This document shows, in pieces, positions 16,468 to 20,191 of a stretch of DNA of 56,233 bases. A model generated the notes under the pieces. The model worked only from the letters and a program-made list of their open reading frames with translations, was not told where the DNA came from and made no database searches. The DNA lies in the NCBI RefSeq assembly GCF_000379445.1, contig NZ_KB902246.1:1-56233 (forward strand), given 5' to 3'. The position numbers and the translations under genes were made by a program. Each line of letters starts with the position of its first letter. Position 1 is the stretch's first letter. The DNA comes from Fangia hongkongensis FSC776 = DSM 21703 (GTDB lineage: Bacteria > Pseudomonadota > Gammaproteobacteria > Francisellales > Francisellaceae).

Positions 16468-17883
16468 CTAAAATCTTATTGTGTCATCTTCAGAGATATA
16501 ATTTCCTGATTGTATCTCTAACATTTCAAGTGGGAGAACACCAATTGCAAATACCTGATGTTTTTTTAAAGGAGTAATATTAATCGACATACCTTCAGAT
16601 AACAAGTGCTCTTCTCCTTCTATTATCACCTTAGCTGCACCACTTAAAACAGTAAAATACTCACTTCGATGATGATGCATTTGTAAAGAGCTTTTCGCCC
16701 CTACTTTGAAATAAAGCTTATTGATAATAAACTTCTCGCCCTTAACAAGCTGATCACTGTATCCCCAAGGGCCATAATGCCGCTTATGCCTGATATGCTC
16801 TTGGCGATTATCCTTTTTAAGTTTATTCACAATTAATTTAATATCTTGAGCTTTTTTAGCATCGGCAACAAGAATGGCATCGGCTGTCTCAACAATCACC
16901 AAATCTTTTACACCAACTGCAGAAAGCATACGGCTATGTGTGCGAAAATAACAGTTCTTTGAGTCGACTTGATATACATCTCCCTTTGTAATATTCCCAT
17001 TTTGATCTTTCTCTCCAAGCTCAAACAGTGCTTTCCAAGATCCCACATCGGACCAGCTCGTTTTTAAAAGTGGGATAACTTGCACATTTTCAGCCTTTTC
17101 CATCACCGCATAATCAACGGAGATATCCTCACACTGGGAAAAACTCTCCTTTGGAATACGGATAAAATCCAAATCTTGTTGTTTTTTACTAAACTCGCAA
17201 GAGCAAATCTCGTATATCTTGGGCTTGTATTTTCTTATTGCATCTAGATAAGCCTTTGCTTTAAATAAAAATATACCACTATTCCAATAAAACCCATCTT
17301 CTGTAATATATTTTCGAGCAGCTTCTAATTCAGGCTTTTCAATAAAGCGTTTAATATAATAAGAAAAGTTATTCTTTTTCTCTCCAATTTCAATATAACC
17401 ATAGCCAACCTCTGGCGCCTTAGGTTTAACCCCAAACGTATAAAGTTCATGATCAGAAACGTTTAAACCTTTAAATATACTCATTAATTCTAAATTATCT
17501 TGAATATAATGATCCGAAGGTAAAACCAACATAATGCCGTCAGGGTTGCTTTCCAACACAGCCAAGGCAGCAAGCGCAATAGCAGGAGCCGTGTTTCTAG
17601 CGCAAGGCTCCAAAATAATTTTTGCATTCTCAACACCTATTCCACGGAGCGACTCGGCAACCTGAAAACGATGTGCTTCATTACAGACAATCAAAGGCGA
17701 GTGGAACATTGACTTATTACTAAAACGTAAGCAGGTGTTCTGCAATAAATTCTTATCATCAATCAGAGGAATAAACTGCTTTGGCGATTTTTGACGGGAT
17801 AATGGCCACAGACGTGAGCCTGACCCACCTGATAAAATTACTGGGTAAATCTTAGCTTCTTTTAGCCTGTTTTTTACCGCCAT
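16468..17883 (-). CDS. manC: Mannose-1-phosphate guanylyltransferase / mannose-6-phosphate isomerase
   Basis: The 471-residue bifunctional enzyme has an N-terminal nucleotidyltransferase domain (VILSGGSGSRLWPLSR, then FIEKPELEAA and ISVDYAVMEKAENV). It also has a C-terminal cupin isomerase domain from about residue 360, with QMHHHRSEYFTVLSG. It supplies GDP-mannose for gmd. No separate phosphomannomutase (manB) is present in the window, so that step must be encoded elsewhere. This is the first gene of the polysaccharide operon on the minus strand; the promoter should lie in 17884-18069 but no convincing -35/-10 pair was seen. Confidence 0.95.
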   Translation of the reverse strand: MAVKNRLKEAKIYPVILSGGSGSRLWPLSRQKSPKQFIPLIDDKNLLQNTCLRFSNKSMFHSPLIVCNEAHRFQVAESLRGIGVENAKIILEPCARNTAPAIALAALAVLESNPDGIMLVLPSDHYIQDNLELMSIFKGLNVSDHELYTFGVKPKAPEVGYGYIEIGEKKNNFSYYIKRFIEKPELEAARKYITEDGFYWNSGIFLFKAKAYLDAIRKYKPKIYEICSCEFSKKQQDLDFIRIPKESFSQCEDISVDYAVMEKAENVQVIPLLKTSWSDVGSWKALFELGEKDQNGNITKGDVYQVDSKNCYFRTHSRMLSAVGVKDLVIVETADAILVADAKKAQDIKLIVNKLKKDNRQEHIRHKRHYGPWGYSDQLVKGEKFIINKLYFKVGAKSSLQMHHHRSEYFTVLSGAAKVIIEGEEHLLSEGMSINITPLKKHQVFAIGVLPLEMLEIQSGNYISEDDTIRF

Positions 17884-17966: not shown

Positions 17967-17985
17967 AATTTTAAATTTTTAATTC
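17967..17985. repeat. Left copy of a 19-bp direct repeat flanking the four-helix-bundle gene
   Basis: AATTTTAAATTTTTAATTC here differs at one position from the copy at 18464-18482 (AATTTTCAATTTTTAATTC), which lies on the other side of the four-helix-bundle gene. Further AT-rich degenerate copies (CAATTTTGAATTC, TTTGAATTTTCAATTCTC) fill 17986-18075. Confidence 0.6.
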
Positions 17986-18069
17986 TCAATTTTGAATTCA
18001 ACATTCAGCTAATAGCGTTCTACCATCAAATTAGCCACATTACTCGCCTTTGAATTTTCAATTCTCAAT

Positions 18070-18438
18070 TTAACATTTATCATTTAACCGCGATGACTTC
18101 ACGATACTTGTCAGAAGTTTAATAAGTTCATCAATATCTTCCTTTAAACTTTGAACATGCGTATCTTTGATATTCAAGCACTCTGTTGCGATAAGTAAAT
18201 CAATCCAATACTGAGTTTCTCTAGCTTCCTTACTGGCAATACTCATTTTAGCTATAAAGTCATTTTTGCTTTGCCCTGCCTGCGCCTCATTAATATTTGC
18301 ACCGATTGATGTACCACTTCGAAGTAACTGCTTTGACAATACATACTCTTTTTTGTCATCACACAAATATCTATAAAGTTTCACAATCCTTATTGCAAAC
18401 TCAAAGGCTTTATCCAAAACGATATTTTCAGTTTTCAA
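18070..18438 (-). CDS. Four-helix-bundle protein (S23/TIGR02436-like)
   Basis: The 122-residue, all-helical protein has the recognisable pattern of the four-helix-bundle family: AFEFAIRIVKLYRYL, KKEYVLSKQLLRSGTSIGANINEAQ, FIAKMSIASKEARETQYWIDLL and ELIKLLTSIVKSS. The family includes proteins encoded in 23S rRNA intervening sequences and the Avd accessory protein of diversity-generating retroelements. No reverse transcriptase or rRNA is nearby, so neither role is supported here. The gene stands alone between the polysaccharide operon and pepA, flanked by matching AT-rich direct repeats and a heptamer array, which suggests a mobile cassette. Function unknown. Confidence 0.8.
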   Translation of the reverse strand: MKTENIVLDKAFEFAIRIVKLYRYLCDDKKEYVLSKQLLRSGTSIGANINEAQAGQSKNDFIAKMSIASKEARETQYWIDLLIATECLNIKDTHVQSLKEDIDELIKLLTSIVKSSRLNDKC

Positions 18439-18463
18439 TGCTCACCCTCCGGGGTTCATTTAT

Positions 18464-18482
18464 AATTTTCAATTTTTAATTC
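18464..18482. repeat. Right copy of the 19-bp direct repeat
   Basis: AATTTTCAATTTTTAATTC matches 18 of 19 bases of the copy at 17967-17985 in the same orientation. It runs straight into the heptamer array that begins at 18478. Confidence 0.6.
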
Positions 18483-18568
18483 ATAATTCATAATTCATAA
18501 TTCATAATTCATAATTCATAATTCATAATTCATAATTCATAATTCATAATTCATAATTCATAATTCAT
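18478..18568. repeat. Perfect tandem array, 13 copies of the heptamer AATTCAT
   Basis: Ninety-one bases consist of exactly 13 uninterrupted AATTCAT units. The array lies 40 bp upstream of the four-helix-bundle start (minus strand) and about 216 bp upstream of the pepA start (plus strand). Such arrays change copy number by slippage and could alter promoter spacing. The rest of the gap (18569-18784) holds only the presumed pepA promoter; no other element was recognised. Confidence 0.97.
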
Positions 18569-18784
18569 AATTTTATCCGCTAACGCACATATTGAATAGT
18601 CTTTTATTATCCGCACTTACAGCATACAAATCACCAATCAAGCTAAGCTTCTTCGTTCTTACAAATGCTAATACCACTTGATTGATTCGGTTAAAATATG
18701 AGACACTCTTTGGGCTAAAACTCAGTAACTAAATGCTTAAATGCCGTTTTCAGACTGATAAAAAGAACAAAAATGAGGTATTTT

Positions 18785-20191
18785 ATGAATATTACAGCCG
18801 TACAATCTTTAAATGCAGCTGCGCAAGCTGTGTTTTTATTTGAAGATGAAACCACCTCAATTGAGGCGATCAATAAAGCCATATCCAAAGGCTTATTCAC
18901 AGGCAAACTTGCCTCCACCTTACCTGTTAATGATGGTGAGACACTTTATATCACAGTTGGTTTAGGCAAAAAAGATAAACTTAAAACAACCGCTACGAGA
19001 AAGGCAGTGGATGCACTTTTCAAAGCACTTAAATCACTTAGTGTGACACAATTTGCTGTTGATACTAATAAACTTGGAAATGATGCTGTTCGCATATTCA
19101 CTGAAGCGCTTATTAATAGCAGCTATCACTTTGATGCACTTAAATCAGATAAAGACAGTTACCAGCTAAGTGATATACAAATCCTAGCGGATGATACTAA
19201 AAAGGCACAGCATGATATTTCAATTGCTAGCGCTATCGCAAATGGTCAAAACTACGCTAAAGATTTAAAGAATTTCCCAGCGAATGTTTGTAACACTGAT
19301 TACTTATTAAATGAGGCAAAAAAACTTGCTGAGAAAAATGACAATGTTACTCTACACTATTTAGATGAAAAGAAAATGCATGAGCTTGGCATGGGCTGCA
19401 TTACTGCCGTAGGTCAAGGCTCAAAAATGCCAAGTTATATTGCCTGCATGGAATATTATGGCGCTGAAGATAAATCACAAAAGCCTATTATCCTTGTCGG
19501 TAAGGGGCTTGTTTATGACACAGGAGGACTTTGCTTGAAACCATGGCAAGGGATGGCAACGATGAAAATGGATATGGGCGGCGCTGCTGCTGTATTTGGT
19601 ACCATGAAGGCAATTACAGATTTAAATCTTCCTGTGAATGTTATTGGTGTTGTTGCCCTTGTTGAAAACTCTATTGATGGCGCTTCTTTTAGACCTGGCG
19701 ATGTGCTTAAAAGCATGAAAGGTATTACCGTTGAAGTTGGCAATACGGATGCTGAAGGTCGTTTGGCACTTTGTGATGCTTTAACTTATATTGAAAAATA
19801 CAACCCTGAAGTTGTGATTGATGTTGCTACTTTAACCGGCGCAATGGTGATCTCCCTCGGCGGTAAAATTTCAGGCTTATTTGGCAATGATGACAAGCTT
19901 GTCGAAGCATTAAAAGATGCCTCCAAAGAAGCAAAAGATCCCGCTTGGCACCTTCCTCTTTTTGAAGATTATCATGAGCAGCTTAAAAGTGAAGTGGCTG
20001 ATATGAACAACATCGGCGGTCCTGCAGCAGGCTCTATTACAGCGGCGCTATTTTTATCTCGCTTTACTGAAGATTACCGCTGGGCACACTTAGATGTTGC
20101 TGGAAGCGCAATGGGCGGATTTGATAAAGCCACAGCAAGCGGTCGCCCCGTTCCACTTCTTACTCAGTATATCCTAGATCAAATTAACTAA
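18785..20191 (+). CDS. pepA: Leucyl aminopeptidase (M17 family)
   Basis: From the ATG at 18785 (MNITAVQSLN), which has a GAGGT ribosome site about 8 bp upstream, the protein is 468 residues. An in-frame ATG at 18773 lies before that site. The C-terminal catalytic domain holds the M17 two-metal centre in VGKGLVYDTGGLCLKP, MKMDMGGAAAVFG and NTDAEGRLALCDAL, giving the Lys/Asp/Asp/Asp/Glu ligands and catalytic Arg. It removes N-terminal residues from peptides in the cytosol. It is slightly shorter than E. coli PepA. PepA-type proteins also bind DNA; that cannot be judged here. It converges on the lysR gene with a 15-bp gap and no terminator. Confidence 0.9.
   Translation: MNITAVQSLNAAAQAVFLFEDETTSIEAINKAISKGLFTGKLASTLPVNDGETLYITVGLGKKDKLKTTATRKAVDALFKALKSLSVTQFAVDTNKLGNDAVRIFTEALINSSYHFDALKSDKDSYQLSDIQILADDTKKAQHDISIASAIANGQNYAKDLKNFPANVCNTDYLLNEAKKLAEKNDNVTLHYLDEKKMHELGMGCITAVGQGSKMPSYIACMEYYGAEDKSQKPIILVGKGLVYDTGGLCLKPWQGMATMKMDMGGAAAVFGTMKAITDLNLPVNVIGVVALVENSIDGASFRPGDVLKSMKGITVEVGNTDAEGRLALCDALTYIEKYNPEVVIDVATLTGAMVISLGGKISGLFGNDDKLVEALKDASKEAKDPAWHLPLFEDYHEQLKSEVADMNNIGGPAAGSITAALFLSRFTEDYRWAHLDVAGSAMGGFDKATASGRPVPLLTQYILDQIN

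Follow-up and report, generated by a model that had tools for sequence, protein, structure and literature searches.

A four-helix-bundle gene between tandem heptamer arrays in Fangia hongkongensis: a possible small mobile element akin to 23S rRNA intervening sequences

In the REP/REPIN and RAYT system, a gene for an HUH (Y1) transposase lies between inverted repeats, and gene-less inverted pairs are found elsewhere. A second system is provided by the intervening sequences of 23S rRNA. As described in the available sections of one report on Coxiella (PMC4990558), such a sequence holds an S23p ORF within 28-bp terminal inverted repeats, with tandem GACAGAT heptamers before the ORF, and RNase III cleaves it at the terminal stem. 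According to the same sections, S23p seems not to be produced in vivo and its ORF is decaying; function and origin are called unclear, and older proposals of descent from a mobile element or transposon are quoted. Heptamer repeats have also been described in their own right. The available text of PMC4679880 reports intergenic TAACTGA heptamers in Beggiatoaceae, Cyanobacteria and Bacteroidetes, with no evident transfer mechanism, and that of PMC4692102 reports 70 and 75 inverted pairs of GGGAATC heptamers in two Xanthomonas, generally not associated with mobile elements and keeping their gene context between the two species in 83% of cases. In these available texts, neither account of heptamers names the PF05635 family: "23S" and "four helix" occur 0 times in both, as does "S23" in PMC4679880. 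Finally, PF05635 is said in the part of PMC10053308 at hand to resemble Avd, and the Xcc0516 structure to consist of five four-helix bundles. The literature searched, which left out most subscription journals and preprints, yielded no report linking PF05635 genes outside rRNA with heptamer arrays.

The gene and its flanking arrays in the window

The window is the whole stretch of DNA analysed, 56,233 nucleotides of Fangia hongkongensis FSC776 = DSM 21703 (contig NZ_KB902246.1). The relevant features are listed below.

16468..17883, minus strand: manC-like mannose-1-phosphate guanylyltransferase gene, same direction as the window gene
17967..18007: 3'-side array, outer block (period-7 score 16)
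18049..18086: 3'-side array, inner block, holding the stop codon of the gene (period-7 score 17)
18070..18438, minus strand: four-helix-bundle (S23/IVP) gene, 122 aa, with a TTG start and GGAGG upstream (both by eye)
18458..18572: array 5' of the gene, about 16 heptamers, mostly AATTCAT on the plus and AATTATG on the minus strand (period-7 score 98)
17967..18572, minus strand: proposed whole element (array, gene, array), about 606 bp, with boundaries set by analogy with Microcystis
18773..20191, plus strand: aminopeptidase (Peptidase_M17) gene, divergent from the window gene

The window ORF scored above the curated cut-offs of both PF05635 (E 1.4e-28; 99.6 bits, cut-off 33.8), its sole Pfam match, and TIGR02436, "four helix bundle protein" (E 5.8e-32; 110.2 bits, cut-off 24), and is hence an S23p-type ORF. 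Solved structures exist for relatives of the protein (2rld, 2gsc). The profile search found one PF05635 match in the 2.95-Mb genome, and the Pfam scan found no HUH (Y1) transposase match in the gene. Compared with REP/RAYT, the likeness lies in the gene between inverted repeats and in gene-less inverted pairs, both seen in relatives rather than in the window, whereas the protein is PF05635 instead of an HUH transposase and the ends are heptamer arrays whose unit changes by locus. Diversity-generating retroelements are similar through the resemblance of PF05635 to Avd (PMC10053308, in part); no reverse transcriptase was found among the 12 window ORFs scanned. With the 23S rRNA intervening sequences of Coxiella, and of Leptospira as cited there, the locus shares the protein family by name and tandem heptamers before the ORF, and most of its relatives share an ORF within inverted ends too (PMC4990558, in part). 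In contrast to these, the window copy sits outside 23S rRNA, between the manC-like and aminopeptidase genes, both arms are heptamer arrays, and copies lie in intergenic spacers. Two 23S motifs were found in 0 of 405 loci, some of which lack the gene.

A first-pass annotation had described a solitary gene flanked by near-identical 19-bp direct repeats 497 bp apart. The repeats are there, AATTTTAAATTTTTAATTC at 17967 and AATTTTCAATTTTTAATTC at 18464, with the 122-aa ORF between them, yet they are not discrete 19-bp units: they are in-phase parts of longer period-7 arrays of the form AATTNNN. A scan of the whole window at periods 4-13 placed all period-7 arrays at 17967-18007, 18049-18086 and 18458-18572; the one array of another period is weak, has period 6 and lies at 1767-1795. 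The stop codon of the gene (18070-18072) falls inside the left array. A reading of the direct repeats as a target duplication was ruled out, the repeats being in-phase slices of the arrays.

The arrays are also confined within the genome as a whole. All 15 forward matches of AATTNNNAATTNNNAATTNNNAATT lie within 17967-18572, against 0 for a backward control, and runs of four AATT motifs spaced in 7-bp phase are found in the 2,946,743-bp genome on both sides of the PF05635 gene and nowhere else. The distribution of AATTNNN in its own genome is far from that of a simple AT-rich background; the case that the repeats might turn up all over the genome, raised by the annotation, did not occur for this pattern. 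The backward control gave 0 matches in the window's genome and did give matches in 10 of 30 family genomes, so the AATTNNN pattern is a clean test for the window's genome only. Comparing the left and right flanks of the window gene gave a direct score of 26 and an inverted score of 22, where the best of 500 shuffled left flanks reached 22 and 14. Since AATT is self-complementary, direct and inverted arms cannot be told apart from the window alone.

Period 7, arm orientation and selection among relatives

In the window's own family, the gene was found in 6 of 31 genomes, own included, and its flanks carry other heptamers, such as AGAAGGT and AGAGTTA. Because the heptamer sequence varies among related genomes, we measured periodicity instead of sequence; and as the unit differs from locus to locus, no single repeat was usable as a search query. 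A first sample comprised the best 80 of at least 236 confirmed loci, taken from named genomes across many phyla, with one viral contig added. In the 150-bp flanks of these 80 best loci, composition-corrected self-match peaked at lags 7, 14 and 21 (0.090, 0.071 and 0.057 on one side of the gene, 0.093, 0.071 and 0.058 on the other), while stretches 1 kb from the gene lacked these peaks. Lag 7 was the best of lags 2-13 in 47/80 and 50/81 flanks of the same sample, compared with 4/72 and 8/73 controls. A second sample covered 369 genomes of the window's class, the Gammaproteobacteria, 77 of them with PF05635. Its flank test used 47 genes from 50 loci, 46 of them with both flanks, and lag 7 came out best in 32/47 and 29/46 flanks versus 8/45 and 0/40 controls. 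One genome of the second sample (G304) has the coordinates of one in the first (G038); the two are probably one species, and different genes were used.

Specificity was assessed in 60 stretches of 8-16 kb around PF05635 genes (898,062 bp). They held 182 period-7 arrays, whereas each other period from 4 to 13 gave 3 to 30. Of these arrays, 65 lay at most 300 bp from a found family gene, that is, in 4% of the sequence, and 41 of the 61 found PF05635 genes were touched by period-7 arrays. Period 7 is thereby enriched about ninefold at the gene. The majority of genes have arrays and the majority of arrays (117/182) lie away from a found gene, a count to be read with the fact that the HMM found genes in 55 of the 60 stretches, so that some "solo" arrays adjoin missed copies, for example at L155.

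In the first sample (best 80 of at least 236), the mean inverted score between the arms of a locus was 19.1, compared with 11.2 for direct and 10.0 for inverted pairing with the arm of another locus; inverted exceeded direct in 66 loci against 11, with 2 ties, out of 79. The second sample agreed, with 37 against 9 of 46 loci. Measured against dinucleotide-resampled flanks, inverted arms were significant (p<0.01) in 94 of 125 loci and direct arms in 22. The annotation's direct orientation is hence at odds with most relatives, and the window, with its self-complementary unit, leaves both readings (inverted 22, direct 26). The 31 loci lacking significant inverted arms include L084, L085, L094, L098 and L103, which are mutual close relatives.

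The 5' arms have in common a degenerate heptamer, A-R-T-K-N-N-N, which the AATTNNN of the window fits. Over the 93 arms scoring at least 14, the shared motif reached a log-likelihood of -658, compared with a mean of -721 (sd 3.7, best -716) in 10 column shuffles, and the 5' arm was more than half purine in 73 and less than half in 14. The arm unit correlated with protein relatedness in 93 loci (Mantel r 0.48; maximum of 2000 permutations 0.16), also after arm G+C was taken into account (r 0.33; maximum of 1000 permutations 0.16), which indicates that the arms move or evolve together with the gene. In the 88 loci with arms scoring at least 16, arm mismatches were 83 of G.U type and 83 of A.C type. 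This symmetry bears no RNA-wobble signature and argues for a process at the DNA level, against selection on RNA pairing.

The gene shared its direction with the upstream neighbour in 72 of 95 loci and with the downstream one in 73 of 89. Between co-directional neighbours, it was sense in 56 and antisense in 8, among 85 loci with both neighbours called. The dN/dS of the window gene against its near relative L021 was 0.062, at a dS of 1.9 that is near saturation; the 26 listed pairs with computable dS ranged from 0.005 to 0.30, 21 of them at 0.03-0.15. Judged by these ratios, the gene is under purifying selection where this is measurable.

Copies, filled and empty sites, and arrays elsewhere

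One Microcystis genome holds two copies in different gene neighbourhoods, 89.9% identical over 523 bp of array, gene and array, with no further match outside it; one of the two sites is common to another Microcystis genome. In Microcystis, TAACTGA arms enclose PF05635 genes. Read by eye, 4 of 12 Microcystis genomes carried the gene at site A, 3 had hairpins there that lack the gene and consist of other heptamer units, 1 had an unrelated insert, and the 4 others had arrays that do not enter the gene count. At site B, also read by eye, 6 of the 12 genomes held the gene and 4 had different cores enclosed by like arms; of the last two, one showed a different hairpin and one a single array.

The purH-purD junction is filled in three genomes of three species, with units AATTAGG, AGATAGR and AGAGTGA. 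Among 30 purH-purD loci, 12 have a short heptamer-free spacer by eye (L226, L228, L235, L239, L240, L243, L244, L245, L247, L249, L252 and L253), and the remaining 15 have other inserts or a spacer that is not readable. The three proteins are 63-67% identical, against 86-93% identity between their host DNA and that of L224, and relatives elsewhere are as close to them (63-65%) as they are to each other. Protein divergence in excess of host DNA divergence, together with equally close relatives elsewhere, makes independent insertions the favoured explanation from sequence comparison, though a single old resident with a fast-changing gene and arms may account for the three copies instead. Empty and filled spacers are short and too different for calling a target duplication, and no transposase, nuclease domain match or target duplication was found for the element.

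The near relative L021 is 75.7% identical to the window over 18042-18525, and in the 1.5-kb flanks array stretches were the only other matches. At L022 the element lies between gmd and fcl, two genes that are adjacent in the window. We found pepA in 30/30 family genomes, own included; the other 29 pepA loci have no period-7 array in about 1.5 kb upstream, and gene order is different where looked at, so that no empty site can be read for the window copy.

In eight genera, nine copies lie beside tRNA-Gln(CTG), the gene just upstream, with different arms (L350, L356, L359, L363, L364, L366, L369, L370 and L373), L359 and L369 being without significant inverted arms. The tRNA-Gln label clusters in the tree (9 rows, 2 changes; shuffled mean 8.6, 0/500 as low); that tree has 22 open forks of 55 and was used for this clustering alone, which near copies make easier. 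By eye, further PF05635 copies precede tRNA-Leu or tmRNA-like sequence (L037, L041, L042, L067 and L047). Incidentally, a 1.54-Mb contig of genome G503 (L361, L362) carries 10 weak, nearly identical PF05635 matches, with another that is weaker still, and most lie near its two ends; no Rfam match was found in the two stretches. Plasmids and phages were rejected as carriers, since a search with the window protein gave rare PF05635 matches on both (26/72,556 and 2/50,697).

Arrays also occur without the gene. Of 30 family genomes, 13 had AATTNNN arrays; 3 of these carry the gene, 7 gave no PF05635 match and 3 were outside the PF05635 search. In three cyanobacterial genomes (Microcystis/Nostocales), three TAACTGA units in tandem gave 569-1252 overlapping matches versus 1-9 PF05635 matches, counted among the matches listed in a search of 50 of the 80 first-sample genomes (best 80 of at least 236). 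L296 has gene-less array pairs in a genome without a PF05635 match. A link of solo arrays to gene presence within one family was looked for, and none was seen: within the family of G048, period-7 arrays numbered 0 in 269,701 bp of pieces from PF05635-positive genomes and 5 in 300,869 bp from PF05635-negative ones, all 5 in one genome.

An inverted partner within 200 bp was found for 23 of 108 solo arrays against 5.6 expected, and a direct one for 11 against 7 expected. We defined compact pairs by a gap of 300-700 bp, a score of at least 15 and inverted above direct; 63 stretches held 27 of them, 26 of which enclose a PF05635 gene (hand count). Away from the gene that had brought the stretch in, 4 of 5 compact pairs did so (hand count). 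Over all gaps of 150-4000 bp in these stretches, the 114 array pairs comprised 57 inverted and 57 direct, and 41 enclose the gene, so the inverted excess is confined to compact pairs.

Some arrays have other company. AAA-ATPase_like/PDDEXK_9 genes lie beside or between arrays at L409 (1-2376), L422 (3743-5874) and L137 (3538-5192), with a nucleotidyltransferase gene also near the arrays of L409; the genes of L137 and L422 were assigned by similarity. Possibly, the ATPase and nucleotidyltransferase genes are a second cargo, bearing in mind that most such loci, L137 excepted, were brought in by their array. Heptamer arrays run in frame into coding sequence at L411 and L414 (1492-1532) and L413 (1496-1532), three heptamers making 7 codons; examples are the N-terminus of an fcl-like protein and the interior of an rmlD-like ORF, both named by eye. 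Two related genomes without a PF05635 match (G008, G015) have a long AATTAAG array in an apparent ATP synthase operon (L418, 1501-1581; L420, 1497-1562), where by eye it separates an atpB-like from an atpE-like gene. By eye, a GGGCGGGACACCCGCACCC-like core stands beside heptamer arms at L188 (6374-6497), L171 (14072-14178) and the upstream flank of L068; these are two gene-less hairpins and one gene-bearing flank from different Clostridia-like genomes.

A candidate element, its alternatives and its meaning

Comparison among genomes shows, at the level of the family, period-7 arrays on both sides of the gene, mostly inverted arms, the same unit of array, gene and array at different sites, heptamer-free empty sites, mostly sense orientation between co-directional neighbours, and purifying selection where measurable. 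We consider it an even call that the feature is a small mobile element of about 0.4-0.6 kb, in which two heptamer end arrays flank a single gene, and that it is kin to the 23S rRNA intervening sequences. The annotation's suggestion of a mobile cassette with an S23/IVP protein is supported for the family by the Microcystis copies, the purH-purD site and purifying selection; for the window's own copy, we infer mobility from its relatives.

Such an element might work as follows. The 5' arm, along the gene, is a tandem array of the degenerate heptamer A-R-T-K-N-N-N, here AATTATG and variants, and the 3' arm would normally be its reverse complement. Because the arms are complementary, a folded single strand could form a hairpin whose loop holds the gene. 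The protein, of the Xcc0516/Avd fold type, would bind the arms and might thereby help host replication or recombination enzymes to copy the hairpin and place copies in intergenic spacers; host enzymes are invoked because the element encodes no transposase. Slippage and template switching in the hairpin could renew the unit while keeping the arms complementary. The intervening sequences of 23S rRNA would be copies that landed in rRNA, and gene-less array hairpins would be derivatives or products of the same process.

A possible alternative, which we are inclined to doubt, is that heptamer-array hairpins are an independent class of bacterial repeats, which slippage and template switching would create and recombination between arrays would spread, with the four-helix-bundle gene as one passenger among several that does not act on them. 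Arrays without the gene are indeed common, the core between like arms at a Microcystis site is the gene in 6 of 12 genomes and something else in further ones, PF09820/PDDEXK_9 and nucleotidyltransferase genes stand beside arrays, direct pairs equal inverted ones over all gaps (57 vs 57), and the available text on Xanthomonas heptamers does not tie them to mobile elements (PMC4692102). However, a mere passenger sits poorly with the compact inverted pairs, 26/27 of which, and 4/5 off centre, enclose PF05635, or with an arm unit that tracks protein relatedness; the empty purH-purD sites offer no array to land in, and AATTNNN in the window's genome is confined to the one gene.

The complementarity of the arms may also be explained by their acting in RNA: the stem of a sense transcript would be cut by RNase III and the insert released from mRNA or rRNA, making insertion harmless, and selection on RNA pairing would keep the arms complementary. 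The Coxiella insert, with its 28-bp terminal stem and RNase III cleavage (available sections of PMC4990558), and the orientation bias of 56 sense to 8 antisense agree with this, but selection on RNA pairing predicts an excess of G.U-type over A.C-type mismatches where we counted 83 and 83, and the window element, folded as single-stranded DNA, did slightly better than 20 shuffles (z -1.69), one of which was as good. We regard the RNA explanation as unlikely. Quite improbable, in our judgement, is an ordinary host or defence gene whose arrays are phase-variation or expression repeats. The 5' array does adjoin the gene start, dN/dS is low, and the tRNA-Gln copies group together in the tree and hold the same position in eight genera; yet phase variation requires no mirror-image array behind the gene, the distribution is patchy (6/31 family genomes, own included, and 77/369 in the class), and two near copies occupy two sites of one Microcystis genome.

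If the mobile-element reading is taken further, PF05635 elements might form a class of their own, transposase-free, with tandem-heptamer ends that are rewritten at or after each move and yet stay mirror images, and with a pentameric four-helix-bundle protein reading A-R-T-K-N-N-N. We think this somewhat unlikely; if true, it would account for rRNA intervening sequences and for some of the unexplained heptamer excess in bacterial genomes. The TAACTGA and GGGAATC repeats are like the arrays at PF05635 genes in being intergenic and of period 7 (PMC4679880 and PMC4692102, in part). The arrays at PF05635 genes unite, through one protein family, three separate observations: S23p intervening sequences, the bacterial heptamer excess and the TAACTGA/GGGAATC arrays. 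Period 7 with inverted arms offers a signature by which such elements may be listed genome-wide, and the role of S23p and the movement of intervening sequences become testable, with a protein, candidate binding sites and defined empty sites in hand.
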